The translations under genes were made by a program, and so were the position numbers. Below the pieces are notes generated by a model. It did no database searches, was not told the origin of the DNA, and saw nothing but the letters and a program-made list of their open reading frames with translations. A stretch of DNA of 64,000 nt, taken from Fidelibacterota bacterium. Its GTDB lineage: Bacteria; Fidelibacterota; Fidelibacteria; Fidelibacterales; Fidelibacteraceae. The stretch is taken from positions 1-64,000 of the forward strand of contig JAQUPD010000003.1 of the NCBI GenBank assembly GCA_028716785.1, written 5' to 3'. Shown one piece after another: positions 53,060-58,520 of this stretch (positions are counted from its first letter, which is position 1; each line of letters starts with the position of its first letter).

Positions 53060-54610
53060 ATGAATTTTTCAATGTCGTTATACTCAAGTTTTTTTCAGAT
53101 TACAAAACAAAAGCACGATCAAGTTTTTCTCATGCAGGAGGGTGAAAATTATACATATTATGATGTTTTAAATAAATCACTCCAAATTGCAGGGTATTTA
53201 TTGGAAGTTGGGGTAAAAAAACGCTCACGGGTAGCAATAATGCTTCTCCCTTCTCCTGAATTTTATTTTATCATTCTTGCCTTATCACGCCTTGAGTGTA
53301 CTGTTGTTCCTGTAGACCCTAATTTTAAGTCCTTGGCACTGAGGCATGTTCTTTCTGATGCTGACATTTCAACAATTATTTATTATCAAAAATTTGAAAA
53401 GAGTGTAGCAGATGCTATTGACATTTTAGAAAGCATTTCAACAATTATTGCGGTGGGTCAAAAGGGAGATCTCTCGGATTTATATATTGATTCTACGTTG
53501 AAACATTCTTTATATGGGGGACCTTTTCATCCTGATAATAAGCAAGAAGCAGTGATATTTTTCAGTTCTGGAACAAGTGGCCCTTCAAAGGGGGGGATTT
53601 TTACCAATCAACAGTTGCTTAAGAATGCCCAGTCTTTTTATGAAACCATGATGTTTCATAAAGATGAAATCCTATGCGCTCAGTTTCCTCTGCATCATTT
53701 TTGGGGATTTACGACTGTTTTAGTAACATCTTTGATGAAAGGGAACCGCGTTATTTTAAACCCATCATTCACATTACCCTCTGTTCCAGAATCCTCAAGA
53801 GGAATAATACTTATTGGTGAAACCACCTATTTTGAAGCGTTATCAACATCACTCGAAACGATGCCAGAAAACTATTTATATGGCATTACGGCGGGTGGAC
53901 ATTTGAAATCTGAGGTGCAATCGTGGTTTTATCAAACGTTTCACTTCCCAATTTATCGGGGATATGGATTAATTGAAGCAGGCCCAATCATTCTAATTAA
54001 TAATGATGAGAGAAAACTCCGTTCAATTGGCGTACCTCTTCATAATATTGCCATTTCTCTACGGAACGGGGAAAAAGTTGTCTCCGATCAAAAAGTTTGT
54101 GAATTGTGTATTTGGAAAGAATCCTTGATATCGGGATTTACTTCCAATCAAGATAAGTTAAAAACATCACTGGATGATGATGGGTGGTTTCATACGGGCG
54201 ATTTGTGCTATCAGGATTTGGATGGCTATTTTTACTTTGTTGATCGGGTAGAAAATCGAATTCGAATCAATGGGTTCGATATCTTCCCCGAAAAAATGGA
54301 AGATATTCTTAAAAAACATCCTAATGTACAAGAAGCCGTGATCGTTGGTATTCCTATTGATAACCGAGGCAATGAAAAATGTGTTGCCTTTGTGGTTCCT
54401 AAAAAATTGAGTCAGGCAAATGCAGACGAATTAAAAGCTTATTTGAAAGGAAAAGTTCCACGCTATCAAATTCCCTCTGATGTTATTTTTACTGATCATT
54501 TATTGGTTGGTGCGACGGGTAAAATTGCACGACAAACAATTCGAATAAATGCAATACATCGAAATAGCAAAAACAACAATATATCTTCAAAAATGGAGGA
54601 TGATGAATGA
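53060..54610 (+). CDS. AMP-forming acyl-CoA synthetase/ligase
   Basis: A 516-residue class I adenylate-forming enzyme. Motif A3 VIFFSSGTSGPSKGG binds ATP; A5 is YRGYGLIEAGP; A7 is WFHTGDLCYQDLDGYF; A8 is DRVENRIRINGFDIFPEKME; the catalytic Lys is near the C-terminus in GATGKIARQT. It activates an organic acid, probably fatty, to an acyl-AMP and then CoA thioester. The substrate is not readable. Its stop overlaps the EF-G paralogue start (ATGA). Confidence 0.9.
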   Translation: MNFSMSLYSSFFQITKQKHDQVFLMQEGENYTYYDVLNKSLQIAGYLLEVGVKKRSRVAIMLLPSPEFYFIILALSRLECTVVPVDPNFKSLALRHVLSDADISTIIYYQKFEKSVADAIDILESISTIIAVGQKGDLSDLYIDSTLKHSLYGGPFHPDNKQEAVIFFSSGTSGPSKGGIFTNQQLLKNAQSFYETMMFHKDEILCAQFPLHHFWGFTTVLVTSLMKGNRVILNPSFTLPSVPESSRGIILIGETTYFEALSTSLETMPENYLYGITAGGHLKSEVQSWFYQTFHFPIYRGYGLIEAGPIILINNDERKLRSIGVPLHNIAISLRNGEKVVSDQKVCELCIWKESLISGFTSNQDKLKTSLDDDGWFHTGDLCYQDLDGYFYFVDRVENRIRINGFDIFPEKMEDILKKHPNVQEAVIVGIPIDNRGNEKCVAFVVPKKLSQANADELKAYLKGKVPRYQIPSDVIFTDHLLVGATGKIARQTIRINAIHRNSKNNNISSKMEDDE

Positions 54611-56691
54611 AAACATATGATACGAAGCATATTCGAAATTTTTCTCTTATGGGACATTCGGCAAGTGGAAAAACAATTCTTTCCGAGGCCTTGTTATTTT
54701 TAGCTGGTGAAATTAACCGTATTGGCTCCATCCAGGAAGGAAACACAGTGTCTGATTATTCGAGTGATGAAATTGAGCGTCAAATATCCATTAAGACATC
54801 TTTGATACATGTTGATAAAGAAGGGGTAAAATGTAATATTTTAGACACACCAGGCTATATGGATTTTATAGGCGAAGTAATGAGTGCGGCAAAAGTCGCT
54901 GAAAATACTATAATTCTCGTCAATTCTACATCAGGCATAGAAGTGGGTACAGAATTTGCCTGGAATTATGTCAATGATTTCAAAACAACAGCAATGTTTG
55001 TCATGTCTATGCTGGATAAAGAACACACACAATTTGATGCCATTGTCAAAAGCATTCAAGAACGCTTTTCAAATAGAATTTTCCCGTTGCAAATTCCTGT
55101 CAATGCCGGTCCTGCTTTTGATCGCGTCATCGATTTATTAAAGCGCAAGATGTTGGTATTTGATGACAAAGGTACTTATACTGAAGAAGAGATTCCCGCT
55201 GAATATATGGATGACTTTGAAGCAAGGTATGAAGAACTTATTGAATTAGTTGCTGAATCGGATGATGTGTTATTGGAAAAATATTTTGAAGCGGGAGAGC
55301 TAACGGAAAACGAATTAAAGGATGGCCTTCGTAAAGCAATCCTGGAACGCAATTTTTTTCCTTTAGTGAGCATATCTTCAGAAAAGAAAGTTGGTATTTC
55401 ACGACTAATGGAAATGATGGTTGATTATTTTCCAGATCCCTCACAAAAAAGTGAATGGAAGGTAAAAAAAGCCGAAAAGGCAGATCCTGAACCCATCGCG
55501 ATTGATGAAAAAGGAATTACTTCTCTCTTTGTGTATAAAACCACCCATGAACAGCATGTGGGAGATATGACATATTTTAAAGTCGTGACGGGTGCGTTGA
55601 AAATTGGTGATGAGTTAAAAAATCCTACAACAAATACTTCTGAACGATTTAACAATCTCTTTGTTGTGAATGGAAAAAATCGAAAGGAAGTTTCTGAATT
55701 AAAAGCTGGGGATCTTGGTGTTGCAGTTAAATTAAAAAACACACTTACCAATCATACCTTGATCGATTCAAAAGAACCTTGGGAATTCGTTGGGATTAAA
55801 TACCCTGAGCCTGTTATCCGCGTTGCCATTGAAGCAGCTTCCAAAGGAGATGAGGAAAAAATTAGTGCTGGGTTAGCTCAAATTCAAGCAGAAGACCCTA
55901 CCTTTCATTATGTTGTGGATTCCGAATTAAAACAAACTATTATTTCAGGGATGGGTGAAATTCATTTAGATATATCAATAAAAAAGATAGAGCAACGATT
56001 TAATGTTGAAATCATTCAGGCTGAACCAAAAATACCTTATCGAGAAACAATACGTAAAACAGCAACTGCACGTTATCGGCATAAGAAACAATCAGGGGGT
56101 GCAGGACAATTTGGTGAAGTGGAGCTCCGCGTAGAACCGCTACCACGAGGAAGTGGAGTAGAGTTTGTTAGCGAATTGGTAGGAATGAATGTTGATCGCT
56201 CTTTTGTCCCCTCTATTGAAAAGGGAGTTCGACAGGCTTGTGATGCTGGCCCCCTGTCTGGAAATAAAGTAATAGATGTAAAAGCAGCTGTTTTTGATGG
56301 GAAACAACACCCAGTGGATTCTAAGGATATTGCTTTCCAAATTGCCGGCCGGGGTGCTTTTCGTGATGCTTTTATGAAGGCAGATCCAATTCTTCTGGAA
56401 CCAATTTATGAAATTGAAGTGACAGTTCCCGAAGACTATATGGGAGATGTAATGGGAGATATCTCTGCTCGTCGTGGAAAGGTTCTTGGAATTGATTCTG
56501 ATGGCAACTTTCAGATAATTAAAGCTGAAGTACCCTTGGCAAATCTTTATAAATATTCCAATACTCTCCGTTCTTTGTGCCAGGGAAGAGGCTATCACCG
56601 AAGAAAATTTAGCCATTATGAATATGTCCCTAGGGAAATTCAAGATAAAATTGTTGAAGCATATCAAAAAGAACGAGAAGAAGGACATTAA
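54607..56691 (+). CDS. Elongation factor G paralogue with altered GTPase motifs
   Basis: A 694-residue five-domain translational GTPase of the second EF-G class. G1 is GHSASGKT (residues 16-23, Lys22). The G2 Thr is replaced by Ser61 (ERQISI). G3 reads DTPGYMDF with Tyr84 where canonical EF-G has His, as is common in this subclass. G4, normally NKxD, is SMLD (134-137), so both Asn and Lys are lost. Domain IV (KKQSGGAGQFGEVELRVEP) and domain V are intact. Context is acyl-CoA ligase upstream and a HIT protein downstream. It is probably not the main EF-G. Confidence 0.9.
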   Translation: MKTYDTKHIRNFSLMGHSASGKTILSEALLFLAGEINRIGSIQEGNTVSDYSSDEIERQISIKTSLIHVDKEGVKCNILDTPGYMDFIGEVMSAAKVAENTIILVNSTSGIEVGTEFAWNYVNDFKTTAMFVMSMLDKEHTQFDAIVKSIQERFSNRIFPLQIPVNAGPAFDRVIDLLKRKMLVFDDKGTYTEEEIPAEYMDDFEARYEELIELVAESDDVLLEKYFEAGELTENELKDGLRKAILERNFFPLVSISSEKKVGISRLMEMMVDYFPDPSQKSEWKVKKAEKADPEPIAIDEKGITSLFVYKTTHEQHVGDMTYFKVVTGALKIGDELKNPTTNTSERFNNLFVVNGKNRKEVSELKAGDLGVAVKLKNTLTNHTLIDSKEPWEFVGIKYPEPVIRVAIEAASKGDEEKISAGLAQIQAEDPTFHYVVDSELKQTIISGMGEIHLDISIKKIEQRFNVEIIQAEPKIPYRETIRKTATARYRHKKQSGGAGQFGEVELRVEPLPRGSGVEFVSELVGMNVDRSFVPSIEKGVRQACDAGPLSGNKVIDVKAAVFDGKQHPVDSKDIAFQIAGRGAFRDAFMKADPILLEPIYEIEVTVPEDYMGDVMGDISARRGKVLGIDSDGNFQIIKAEVPLANLYKYSNTLRSLCQGRGYHRRKFSHYEYVPREIQDKIVEAYQKEREEGH

Positions 56692-56693
56692 AA

Positions 56694-57221
56694 ATGGAGT
56701 ATCTTTGGGCTCCTTGGCGTATTGAATATATTCGTCGCGATAAATCTCAAGATGAGGGATGTATTTTTTGCAAAAAAAATTCTGAAGAGAACGATGAAGA
56801 CAATCTTATCGTTTATCGAGGCGAAACTGCTTTTGTGTTGATGAATCTTTTTCCCTATAATAATGGCCATCTCATGATTGCACCCTATCGACATACATCA
56901 GATATCCTATCCCTCTCTGAGGATGAAAGCCATGAAATCTTTGAGCTTACAATGCTTTCTATTTGTGTTATAAATACCTGTCTGAAACCTCAAGGATACA
57001 ATATTGGTATGAATTTAGGACATGTGAGCGGTGCAGGTATTGCCGATCACCTCCATCAACACATTGTGCCGCGATGGCTTGGAGATACAAATTTTATGCC
57101 AATCGTTGGACACACAAAAGTCATGATGAATGGATTGAAAGAGACATGGAAAGTGCTTCATGATGCTTTTGAGGAAATAAAAATCAATCAAAAACACCTT
57201 AACGATAAAGTTACTTTTTAG
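56694..57221 (+). CDS. HIT family hydrolase
   Basis: A 175-residue histidine-triad protein. The active site is HxHxH in DHLHQHIVPRW; YLWAPWRIEYIR with the CIFCKK zinc-type pair is the N-terminal signature of the bacterial diadenosine polyphosphate phosphorylase-like branch. NNGHLMIAPYRH is the conserved strand. Likely acts on Ap4A-type or other nucleotide substrates. AAGGA sits eight bases before the ATG. Confidence 0.93.
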   Translation: MEYLWAPWRIEYIRRDKSQDEGCIFCKKNSEENDEDNLIVYRGETAFVLMNLFPYNNGHLMIAPYRHTSDILSLSEDESHEIFELTMLSICVINTCLKPQGYNIGMNLGHVSGAGIADHLHQHIVPRWLGDTNFMPIVGHTKVMMNGLKETWKVLHDAFEEIKINQKHLNDKVTF

Positions 57222-57245: not shown

Positions 57246-58520
57246 ATGAAAGCAATAAAAGCTGTTAAAGGAACAAAGGATATTCTACCCTGGGAAATTC
57301 CCTTATGGCATCAAATAGAAACCCTTTGCAAAGAGTTATTTGCTTCTGCAGGATATCAAGAAATCCGGACACCAGTCTTTGAAAAAACAGAACTTTTTGC
57401 TCGTGGGATCGGTGAATTTTCAGATATTGTCAGTAAAGAGATGTATACTTTTCAGGATATGGGAGGTGAATGGCTAACGCTAAGACCTGAATTTACAGCT
57501 TCGGTGATTCGATCCTATATTCAACATCACTATTATCAACGCGCTTCTCTTCACAAATTATGGTATTTTGGCCCCTTATTCAGACAAGAACGTCCTCAAG
57601 CAGGCAGACTGAGACAATTTCATCAATTTGGTATTGAGCTTATTGGCTCGGAATATCCTGAAGCTGATGCCGAAATTATCACCCTTGCTTGTGACTTTTA
57701 TAAAAAAATAGGTCTGAAAGATTGGGAACTCCATATAAACAGCATTGGAAATACAAAGGATCGCTTAAACTATATTGAAGTTCTTAAAAAGTCATTAACT
57801 CCTTATGTTGACGATTTGTGTCCAACATGTCAAGACCGTTTTGATAAAAATATTCTAAGACTTTTTGATTGTAAAAACGAATTGTGTCAACAGATTTTGG
57901 ATACCCATGCTCCCAAGATCATTGATTATTTATCCGAGAAGGATAAGGCTCATTTTGAGGAAGTTTGCGAGTATCTTGATCTTCAAAACGTACCCTATCA
58001 GATCAATTCAAAACTTGTAAGAGGCCTTGATTACTATACGCGAACAACGTTTGAAATTAAAAGTAACCACTTAGGGGCACAAGATGCCTTATGTGGGGGT
58101 GGGAGATACGATAATTTGGTGGAAGAGTTAGGAGGACCTTCAACGCCTTCTATTGGGTTCGCCGCAGGAGTAGAACGACTAATAATGGCACTGGAAGCTG
58201 AAGAAAAAGCGTCTGTTCAATTATCACCTCCGGATCTTTATATAGCTCCTATAGATAACCAAGCTTACAAGGGAATTGTAAAATACTGCACGCATTTACG
58301 CAATCAAGGATTCATTATTGAGACAGATTTACTCCGCCGCAGTGTGAAAGCCATGATGCGAGAAGCAAATAGAAAACAAGCCCGCTTTGTTACGGTGATT
58401 GGCTCTGAAGAGCTCAATTCGGGAACACTTACCCTTAAGCATCTTGAAACGGGTCAAGAATATCCTGTTAACTGGGATAACCTTGGTGAATTTCTTGAAA
58501 AAACAATCCTTCCCTTTTAA
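57246..58520 (+). CDS. hisS: Histidyl-tRNA synthetase
   Basis: Class IIa synthetase, 424 residues. Motif 2 spans FRQERPQAGRLRQFHQFG; LVRGLDYYTRTTFE is the histidine-specific loop and FAAGVERLIMALE is motif 3. The C-terminal anticodon-binding domain starts at about 330 (DLYIAPIDNQAYKG). N-terminal AVKGTKDILPWE is the family opening. The lpxL-like gene overlaps its 3' end. Confidence 0.97.
   Translation: MKAIKAVKGTKDILPWEIPLWHQIETLCKELFASAGYQEIRTPVFEKTELFARGIGEFSDIVSKEMYTFQDMGGEWLTLRPEFTASVIRSYIQHHYYQRASLHKLWYFGPLFRQERPQAGRLRQFHQFGIELIGSEYPEADAEIITLACDFYKKIGLKDWELHINSIGNTKDRLNYIEVLKKSLTPYVDDLCPTCQDRFDKNILRLFDCKNELCQQILDTHAPKIIDYLSEKDKAHFEEVCEYLDLQNVPYQINSKLVRGLDYYTRTTFEIKSNHLGAQDALCGGGRYDNLVEELGGPSTPSIGFAAGVERLIMALEAEEKASVQLSPPDLYIAPIDNQAYKGIVKYCTHLRNQGFIIETDLLRRSVKAMMREANRKQARFVTVIGSEELNSGTLTLKHLETGQEYPVNWDNLGEFLEKTILPF

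Follow-up and report, generated by a model that had tools for sequence, protein, structure and literature searches.

A class II elongation factor G of Neomarinimicrobiota with a lysine-less G4 motif and a possibly lower dependence on GTP

The window analysed here, a stretch of 64,000 nucleotides from a Neomarinimicrobiota bacterium, contains an intact open reading frame (positions 54607–56691, forward strand, ATG start), whose translation and profile matches identify it as a class II paralogue of elongation factor G (EFG II) of 694 amino acids. Its G4 motif reads SMLD instead of NKxD, which raises the question of whether such a factor still selects and uses GTP as other EF-Gs do. The original prediction had proposed either a relaxed nucleotide specificity or ribosome binding without classical GTP selection. 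Judging from its sequence, the window EF-G may depend less on GTP than a normal EF-G.

Motifs and class of the window protein

All the motifs lie on the forward strand. The P-loop (G1, GHSASGKT, residues 16–23, positions 54652–54675) retains Lys22. In G2/switch I (RQISI, residues 58–62, 54778–54792) Ser61 replaces Thr, and in G3/switch II (DTPGYMDF, residues 80–87, 54844–54867) Tyr84 replaces His. The G4 motif SMLD occupies residues 134–137 (55006–55017, codons TCT ATG CTG GAT), and the G5 region ISS (residues 256–258, 55372–55380) aligns with canonical GSA. A scripted reading of the translation confirmed Ser61, Tyr84, SMLD and the intact Lys22 as originally predicted, while the description of NKxD as broken holds for Asn and Lys, which are replaced, but not for Asp137, which is retained. 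In the predicted structure (pLDDT 90.4), the strand 128–134 terminates at the G4 motif, and Asp137 is near-invariant in one of our alignments (A1) and invariant in the other (A2); the alignment of G4 is therefore unambiguous. Five Pfam EF-G domain models (GTP_EFTU, EF-G_D2, EFG_III, EFG_IV and EFG_C) scored above their cut-offs. Domain IV (residues 474–592, 56026–56382) has Lys-Lys 493–494 in loop 1 and His568 in loop 2, the latter being invariant in both alignments.

The protein scored 873.7 bits with the NCBIfam model NF009381 (PRK12740.1-5; cut-off 583) and passed the general EF-G model NF009891 (603.3 vs 597 bits), whereas it stayed below the canonical equivalog TIGR00484 (613.7 vs 659.4 bits). 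Class II rows part from canonical rows on a branch with an SH-aLRT support of 100. The assignment to class II is thus well founded, and Ser61 and Tyr84 are, as had been stated, usual for this class. The traits of EFG II are present: domains I–V (the five Pfam models), the relaxed form of RGITI with Ser for Thr, Gly16 and Leu25 in the P-loop, and, in comparison with T. thermophilus EF-G, T312 and K375 in domain II and K493-K494 in loop 1 of domain IV, the published class II positions having been mapped here onto domain II numbering by this analysis. The protein therefore has the same class residues as the EFG II of Margus, Remm and Tenson (2011), and likewise occurs alongside a canonical EF-G, but it lacks the G4 Lys; those authors give a conserved NKxD for the subfamily, as part of a general description rather than as a strict criterion.

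None of the canonical traits (RGITI, switch-II His, NKxD, location in the str operon) was found in the window protein. The same genome also encodes a canonical str-operon EF-G with NKMD, sited elsewhere between S7 and EF-Tu reading frames that were recognized by eye; all five canonical EF-Gs read in the phylum have NKMD.

Distribution and history of the lysine-less G4 motif

A class II EF-G was found in 146 of 199 Neomarinimicrobiota genomes, and its G domain was readable in 144 (the samples of 199 and 198 genomes used in this work are subsets of their phyla). The G4 count leaves out two rows with no G domain (L231 and L232), the fragment L007 and identical copies; it includes L147, a 323-residue open piece of a stop-bearing copy, which was omitted from the analyses of conservation (143 rows), compensation and change counts. 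Lys was present at G4 in none of the 144 copies, its place being taken by Met, Gly, Leu, Gln, Phe, Ala or His, while the P-loop Lys and the switch-I Ser were present in all 144. The G4 Asp was kept in 138, with Asn instead in the other six (TMLN, NMMN, NMVN). Five further sampled genomes belong to the genus, and all have S/T-M-L-D; at the family level, each of the 18 class II copies detected has Met135. The Lys-less state is thus clade-wide at the level of genus, family and phylum, which rules out a read error or a private mutation, and no homologue with intact NKxD was found among the phylum copies. The reported loss of both Asn and Lys holds for the genus and for some other members of the phylum. 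Across the phylum as a whole only Lys is lost, and loss of Asn is not a general trait, as Asn is kept in 102 of the 143 rows. A search of the available literature joining Marinimicrobia with elongation factor G found nothing on the loss of the G4 Lys.

Elsewhere, Lys is present in 80/80 canonical EF-Gs and in 29 of 30 Calditrichota class II copies, a set outside which six further full or near-full copies lie; the Calditrichota relatives with intact G4 share 46–52% identity with the window protein. It is also kept in 63 of the 72 Bacteroidota copies read, out of a longer list. A further search covered 149 genomes from the phylum to which a Clostridiaceae MAG belongs, of which 97 gave a match; of the best 29 new class II loci, which were read, 27 have Lys and the other two Arg. 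None of the 14 Latescibacterota sequences (13 full class II copies plus L240) has Lys.

A 72-row tree contained 40 Lys-less rows. Uniting 38 of them (Neomarinimicrobiota, Latescibacterota and Bacteroidota) in a single clade was strongly rejected by the AU test (p 1.2e-58); this group was picked after the tree was seen and excludes one Calditrichota row and the Arg-bearing L244. The G4 state thus changed several times, an older loss followed by regain being still compatible with the test. The 26 Neomarinimicrobiota rows were not rejected as one clade (p 0.387), so that a single loss within the phylum is possible. On the phylum tree, position 135 changed 15 times, Asp137 four times and Lys22 never; 15 is below the median of a G-domain column (20), and position 135 is therefore not free of constraint. 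The same position changes five times in Calditrichota and Bacteroidota taken together.

Among the domains of the phylum's class II proteins, domain IV shows the highest conservation (0.784, against 0.619 for the G domain). Bacteroidota class II proteins share this pattern; the canonical set does not (0.770 and 0.756). In six pairs of close relatives among L088–L091, a set of pairs that does not involve the window gene, dN/dS was 0.030–0.042 for the whole gene and 0.050–0.083 for the G domain; the gene is under purifying selection. Compensating residues are not claimed: Lys-less proteins more often have a basic residue at position 138 and, in domain IV, the pair R491/F502, but the comparison gave only six independent pairs (median p 0.25 and 0.5), and 13 of 80 canonical EF-Gs share R491/F502.

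The gene is preceded by an AMP-binding, acyl-CoA-ligase-like gene (53060–54610, forward strand), whose stop overlaps the EF-G start (ATGA), and is directly followed on the same strand by a HIT-domain protein resembling Ap4A phosphorylase (56694–57221; Pfam HIT, PDB 3ano), which scored 171.5 bits with the NCBIfam ATP adenylyltransferase model, below its cut-off of 290. Histidyl-tRNA synthetase (57246–58520, forward strand) comes next in the gene run. Promoter-like sites in the region (29, against a shuffle mean of 25.3) were not above chance. The HIT gene lies downstream of the class II EF-G in 130 of 144 cases in the phylum and in 26 of 30 in Calditrichota, where NKxD is kept in 29 of the 30, and is therefore rejected as an explanation of the missing Lys. 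In the available literature, no paper was found that joins elongation factor G with a HIT family gene neighbourhood.

Comparison with known EF-G2 proteins and nucleotide handling

Among PDB entries, phmmer ranked Bacteroides thetaiotaomicron EF-G2 (8dmf/7uvp; family NF058620) first; with a profile, which includes one canonical row, canonical EF-Gs slightly outscore it. The structure 8dmf superposes on the window model with Z 45.9 and rmsd 3.0 over 687 residues, at 41% identity. Its G4 is NQLD and its G3 DCPGSDDF, so both proteins lack the G4 Lys and the switch-II His. Going by the title of Han et al., Bacteroides EF-G2 reportedly has no GTPase activity. The window protein differs from it in having no counterpart of its additional segment in domain IV (model positions ~512–537 unmatched) and in scoring below the cut-off of NF058620 (729.5 vs 1000 bits), which was exceeded in 0/21 genomes. 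The Lys-less Bacteroidota rows do not form one clade with the Neomarinimicrobiota ones, and B. thetaiotaomicron EF-G2 itself is outside the tree.

Thermus thermophilus EF-G-2 (1wdt/2dy1), also of class II, has the same fold as the window model (Z 43.8). It is reported to be active in GTP hydrolysis and in poly(Phe) synthesis, unlike what is proposed below for the window protein; on its intrinsic GTPase the two papers concerned disagree. Mycobacterium smegmatis EF-G2, a paralogue with a ribosome complex in the PDB (9k0z), is reported to bind guanine nucleotides but to have no ribosome-dependent GTPase. In M. tuberculosis EF-G2, G1, G3 and G4 are conserved according to the part of PMC8446442 that covers them, whereas G4 is altered in the window protein; the lack of GTPase in mycobacterial EF-G2 is thus independent of a G4 change.

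By analogy with Bacteroides EF-G2, we propose, with a probability of about 0.48, that the window gene encodes an EFG II factor that acts on the ribosome, holds guanine less tightly and probably shows slow or no ribosome-coupled GTP hydrolysis. Retained beside the canonical EF-G, it would bind the factor site of the ribosome and use domain IV to assist tRNA–mRNA movement or a related step. The phosphate-binding P-loop and DxPG are intact, and guanine nucleotide would be bound with lowered affinity, since the contact made by Lys is missing but recognition of guanine by Asp137 is still possible. Canonical EF-G has a P-loop Asp with a catalytic role; because neither this residue nor the switch-II His is present here, GTP hydrolysis or product release would be slow or absent on the ribosome. 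The factor might serve in slow growth or energy shortage, as suggested by Bacteroides EF-G2. The available passages of PMC4532990 report slow Pi release for E. coli EF-G H91A, H91E and H91Q, and release too slow to measure for H91R; on the other side, H91Q hydrolysed GTP normally and the H91 mutants kept their GTP affinity, and the set described there includes no Tyr mutant. Also set against the proposal are the active GTPase of T. thermophilus EF-G-2, the conserved G4 of M. tuberculosis, the missing domain IV segment, the NF058620 score, the higher profile scores of canonical EF-Gs, the constraint on position 135 and the 53 of 199 phylum genomes without a class II copy at E 6e-159 or better. 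Of the original prediction, action on the ribosome with no classical turnover of GTP is plausible, given NQLD and the reported lack of GTPase in Bacteroides EF-G2.

It is also quite possible that the protein is an ordinary class II GTPase, in which Asp137 together with the G4 backbone and G5 is enough to hold guanine, the replacement of Lys is near-neutral, and GTP is bound and hydrolysed on the ribosome as by the active T. thermophilus EF-G-2. The conservation of Asp in 138 copies speaks for it, and the Rho-family GTPases with TQxD are a precedent, while the constancy of Lys in canonical EF-Gs and its near-constancy in Calditrichota and the best new loci shows that this residue is normally constrained. 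The lysines 117 and 147 of a published case study are presumably those of G4 and G5 in Ras numbering. The passages available from PMC11594714 bear on both sides: 43.3% of 298 guanine–protein complexes bind guanine without NKxD, and 20.5% do so through an Asp or Glu pattern, but Lys 117 and 147 together provide 59.6% of the guanine binding energy in the case study.

A relaxed specificity, by which the pocket would accept GTP, ATP, XTP or some other nucleotide, or else a dinucleotide, for example Ap4A, with the intact P-loop holding the phosphates, appears unlikely. In EF-Tu, Asp to Asn in G4 shifts the preference to xanthine nucleotides, and six phylum members combine this change with the general absence of Lys; the HIT gene downstream points the same way. 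However, the window protein keeps Asp137, and therefore its selectivity for guanine should not be taken as lost by default; given this and the guanine complexes lacking NKxD, the earlier suggestion is not supported in the form in which it was made. The HIT linkage, moreover, is not tied to Lys loss. A specialized recycling or rescue factor like mtEFG2 or Borrelia EF-G2, rather than a translocase, seems improbable: divisions of EF-G function are known from Borrelia and mitochondria (available passages of PMC3832671), but the profile scores mitochondrial EF-G2 (7l20, 7nsh) at 478–488 bits against 884 for canonical EF-G, distance alone being a weak guide to function. Least credible is a duplicate decaying towards a pseudogene. 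The class II copy of G035, of the same family (source of L147), has five in-frame stops, two other phylum genomes (G019 and G024) have one TGA each in the matched stretch, and the genomes without a copy fit decay; yet the other class II matches listed contain no stops, and the low dN/dS and the invariant P-loop Lys and Ser61 argue against it.

A bolder form of the proposal, which we consider doubtful, is that these second EF-Gs drive ribosome movement with an unusual mode of GTP recognition and consumption, or with none, the base pocket having been repeatedly freed from guanine selection, in some cases with loss of Asp, against an unchanging phosphate site and tRNA-contacting tip. Translocation independent of GTPase would then, if this is true, be a strategy reached several times in bacteria, beyond Bacteroides. 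The available passages of PMC12775393 present as still debated the question of which translocation steps need GTP hydrolysis by EF-G. The Lys-less EF-Gs of Neomarinimicrobiota and the NKxD-bearing ones of Calditrichota form a comparative series for the role of the G4 Lys on the ribosome, and for whether low-GTP or GTP-independent translocation arose more than once.

A second EF-G beside the str-operon copy

The ORF at 54607-56691 on the forward strand encodes a complete EF-G of 694 residues, and lies in a 2.19 Mb genome of 71 contigs, of which the window represents C3:1-64000. Reading the translated ORF bore out the residues named in the original prediction, i.e. K22, S61, Y84 and SMLD at 134-137. 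The closest named relatives are Candidatus Marinimicrobia/Neomarinimicrobiota MAGs (UBA6817 at 79% identity, the next at 62%, then about 50%). The same genome also carries a canonical EF-G (C2:84187-86247; 34% identity to the class II copy) that has NKMD, RGITI and a switch-II His and is flanked by S12-S7 and EF-Tu ORFs (recognised by eye), which is the str operon.

The window EF-G was placed in NCBIfam PRK12740.1-5 (873.7 bits vs a cut-off of 583). It narrowly passed the general EF-G model NF009891 (603.3 vs 597), and fell below the cut-offs of TIGR00484 (613.7 vs 659.4) and of the Bacteroides EF-G2 model (729.5 vs 1000). It shares with the EFG II subfamily, as described by Margus et al. (2011; PMC3150367), G16, L25, the Ser in G2, the Lys-Lys of domain IV loop 1 and, in our own mapping, T312 and K375 in domain II. 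In the tree, a starred branch separated canonical from class II rows. As had been supposed, Ser61 and a missing switch-II His are the usual state among the class II copies read, none of which has His84. In domain IV, K491/Y502 and R491/F502 are mostly paired across canonical and class II EF-Gs, which suggests that positions 491 and 502 form a coupled site in loop 1.

From its sequence, the window-type class II gene looks functional. The dN/dS ratio was 0.030-0.042 over the six pairs among the loci L088-L091 (0.050-0.083 for the G domain alone); comparisons with the window gene itself gave no dS over the full gene length. Domain IV is the most conserved domain in the class II copies of the phylum (mean identity 0.784 vs 0.619 for the G domain). 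Because it also ranks highest in Bacteroidota class II copies (0.676 vs 0.581) but not in the canonical set, where it is close to the G domain (0.770 and 0.756), this is a trait of class II rather than of the Lys-less proteins; in Calditrichota, domain V is slightly above domain IV (0.837 vs 0.828). Both alignments show no variation at His568, in domain IV loop 2. Ribosome-bound EF-Gs align with the AlphaFold model (pLDDT 90.4, pTM 0.83) over almost all of its length, the best at Z 54.0, and so does Bacteroides thetaiotaomicron EF-G2 (8dmf), at rank 22 (Z 45.9, rmsd 3.0, 687 residues, 41%). Bacteroides EF-G2, whose motifs are NQLD and DCPGSDDF, was the top phmmer match in the PDB; when a profile search was used instead, canonical EF-Gs ranked slightly above it. 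The chain of 7uvp_A/8dmf is named tetracycline resistance protein TetQ, a misleading molecule name, given that the title of 8dmf is B. thetaiotaomicron EF-G2.

Distribution and history of the G4 lysine

A class II copy, called at an E of 6e-159 or better, was found in 146 of the 199 sampled genomes of the phylum, one per genome, and 144 of these copies include the G domain. Lys135 is absent from all 144, so that the change at G4 is indeed clade-wide, the point on which an alignment had been proposed as a check. The motifs are NGLD (40), NMLD (26), TGLD (17), TMLD (11), SMLD (8) and fifteen rarer forms, and in the window's family all 18 class II copies have Met135. K22 and S61 are present in 144/144, while position 84 is Y in 109, F in 29, S in 3, A in 2 and T in 1. 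The G4 Asp is kept in 138; the remaining six (L110, L111, L119, L122, L135 and L161) have Asn (TMLN 4, NMMN 1, NMVN 1), and L123, from the same genus as L111, has Asp. In EF-Tu, an Asp-to-Asn change in G4 turns specificity towards xanthine.

One genome of the window's family has a class II copy (L147, G035:C152:2689-4755) with three TGA and two TAG codons in frame, which is a frameshift or a pseudogene. Genus f7/g9, with small genomes (0.7-1.0 Mb, some incomplete), shows no class II EF-G in 19/20 (best E weaker than 1e-142), G155 being the sole exception.

In the comparison groups, which are samples and not full sets, Lys is kept in 29/30 Calditrichota and 63/72 Bacteroidota copies, and in none of 14 from Latescibacterota (NLLD 13, NHVD 1). 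A further nine class II copies have Lys (7) or Arg (2), as do 29 more from the phylum to which a Clostridiaceae MAG belongs (Lys 27, Arg 2), and canonical EF-Gs have NKxD in 80/80. Every EF-G II read in Neomarinimicrobiota lacks the G4 Lys, whereas in 2011 G4 had been described as conserved in EFG II (PMC3150367). While EF-G II and GTPase-deficient EF-G paralogues are already known, no paper on a phylum-wide loss of this Lys in EF-G II was found in the literature searched.

On a tree of 72 rows, built with the G4 columns left out, the Lys-less proteins are scattered over Latescibacterota, Neomarinimicrobiota, some Bacteroidota, one Calditrichota and one Firmicutes-type row with Arg. Parsimony requires 7 or 8 state changes, a count that does not tell loss from regain; because Lys is found in canonical and Clostridia-type rows, we infer that the direction was probably loss. 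A single clade for 38 of the 40 Lys-less rows, a grouping picked after the tree was seen, was rejected (p = 1.2e-58). Monophyly of Neomarinimicrobiota was not rejected (p = 0.387), so the phylum may have lost the Lys just once, at its base. Inside Neomarinimicrobiota, 15 changes were counted at position 135, 4 at D137 and none at K22; Calditrichota and Bacteroidota together show 5 changes at position 135. Compared with the median G-domain column (20 and 21 changes, respectively), this indicates that constraint at position 135 was eased but not abolished.

The neighbouring HIT gene

The EF-G gene belongs to a same-strand run encoding an AMP-binding ligase, whose stop overlaps the EF-G start (ATGA), the EF-G, a HIT protein, HisRS and an LpxL-like acyltransferase. 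The HIT gene (56694-57221, same strand, downstream of EF-G) is Ap4A-phosphorylase-like: in the PDB, its product matched an unnamed HIT protein first (131.6 bits) and Ap4A phosphorylase 3ano second (130.7 bits), and it was below the cut-off of the NCBIfam ATP-adenylyltransferase model. Of 144 loci of the phylum, 130 have a same-strand HIT match downstream of EF-G (138 have at least 250 bases downstream), and in 108 of these 130 it is within 150 bases of the EF-G stop. Downstream matches were also found in 26/30 Calditrichota, 26/32 Bacteroidota with flank and 2/20 further Bacteroidota, and in none of the Latescibacterota (0/14), other (0/9) and Clostridia-type (0/29) loci. The link between EF-G II and HIT looks old, and it is not tied to the loss of Lys; the two form a conserved gene pair.

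Nucleotide handling and possible role

In a case study, two lysines supplied 59.6% of the guanine binding energy, and the double hydrogen bond is commonly made by Asp; the paper also found NKxD absent in 43.3% of 298 guanine complexes (PMC11594714). With Lys gone and Asp137 kept, binding of guanine is therefore predicted to be weaker, and would still be guanine-preferring. As for switch II, His mutants of E. coli EF-G are described as having unchanged GTP affinity; H91Q hydrolyses GTP normally and other H91 mutants more slowly, and Pi release is slow in the A, E and Q mutants and not measurable in R, the series described having no Tyr (PMC4532990).

That the protein is an ordinary class II GTPase comes close behind the likeliest reading, that of a factor with a weakened grip on guanine, and class II precedents for GTPase activity point both ways. 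T. thermophilus EF-G-2 is described as hydrolysing GTP and as active in poly(Phe) synthesis, and M. smegmatis EF-G2 as binding guanine nucleotides without ribosome-dependent GTPase, even though G4 is reported as conserved in M. tuberculosis EF-G2 (PMC8446442). Bacteroides EF-G2, going by the title of Han et al., reportedly lacks GTPase activity. Carbon limitation raises Bacteroides EF-G2 (PMC6989115; PMC10994844), and it is by analogy with this protein that the likeliest role of the Lys-less EF-G II would be that of a slow, GTP-sparing ribosome factor, which may serve the cell in lean times.
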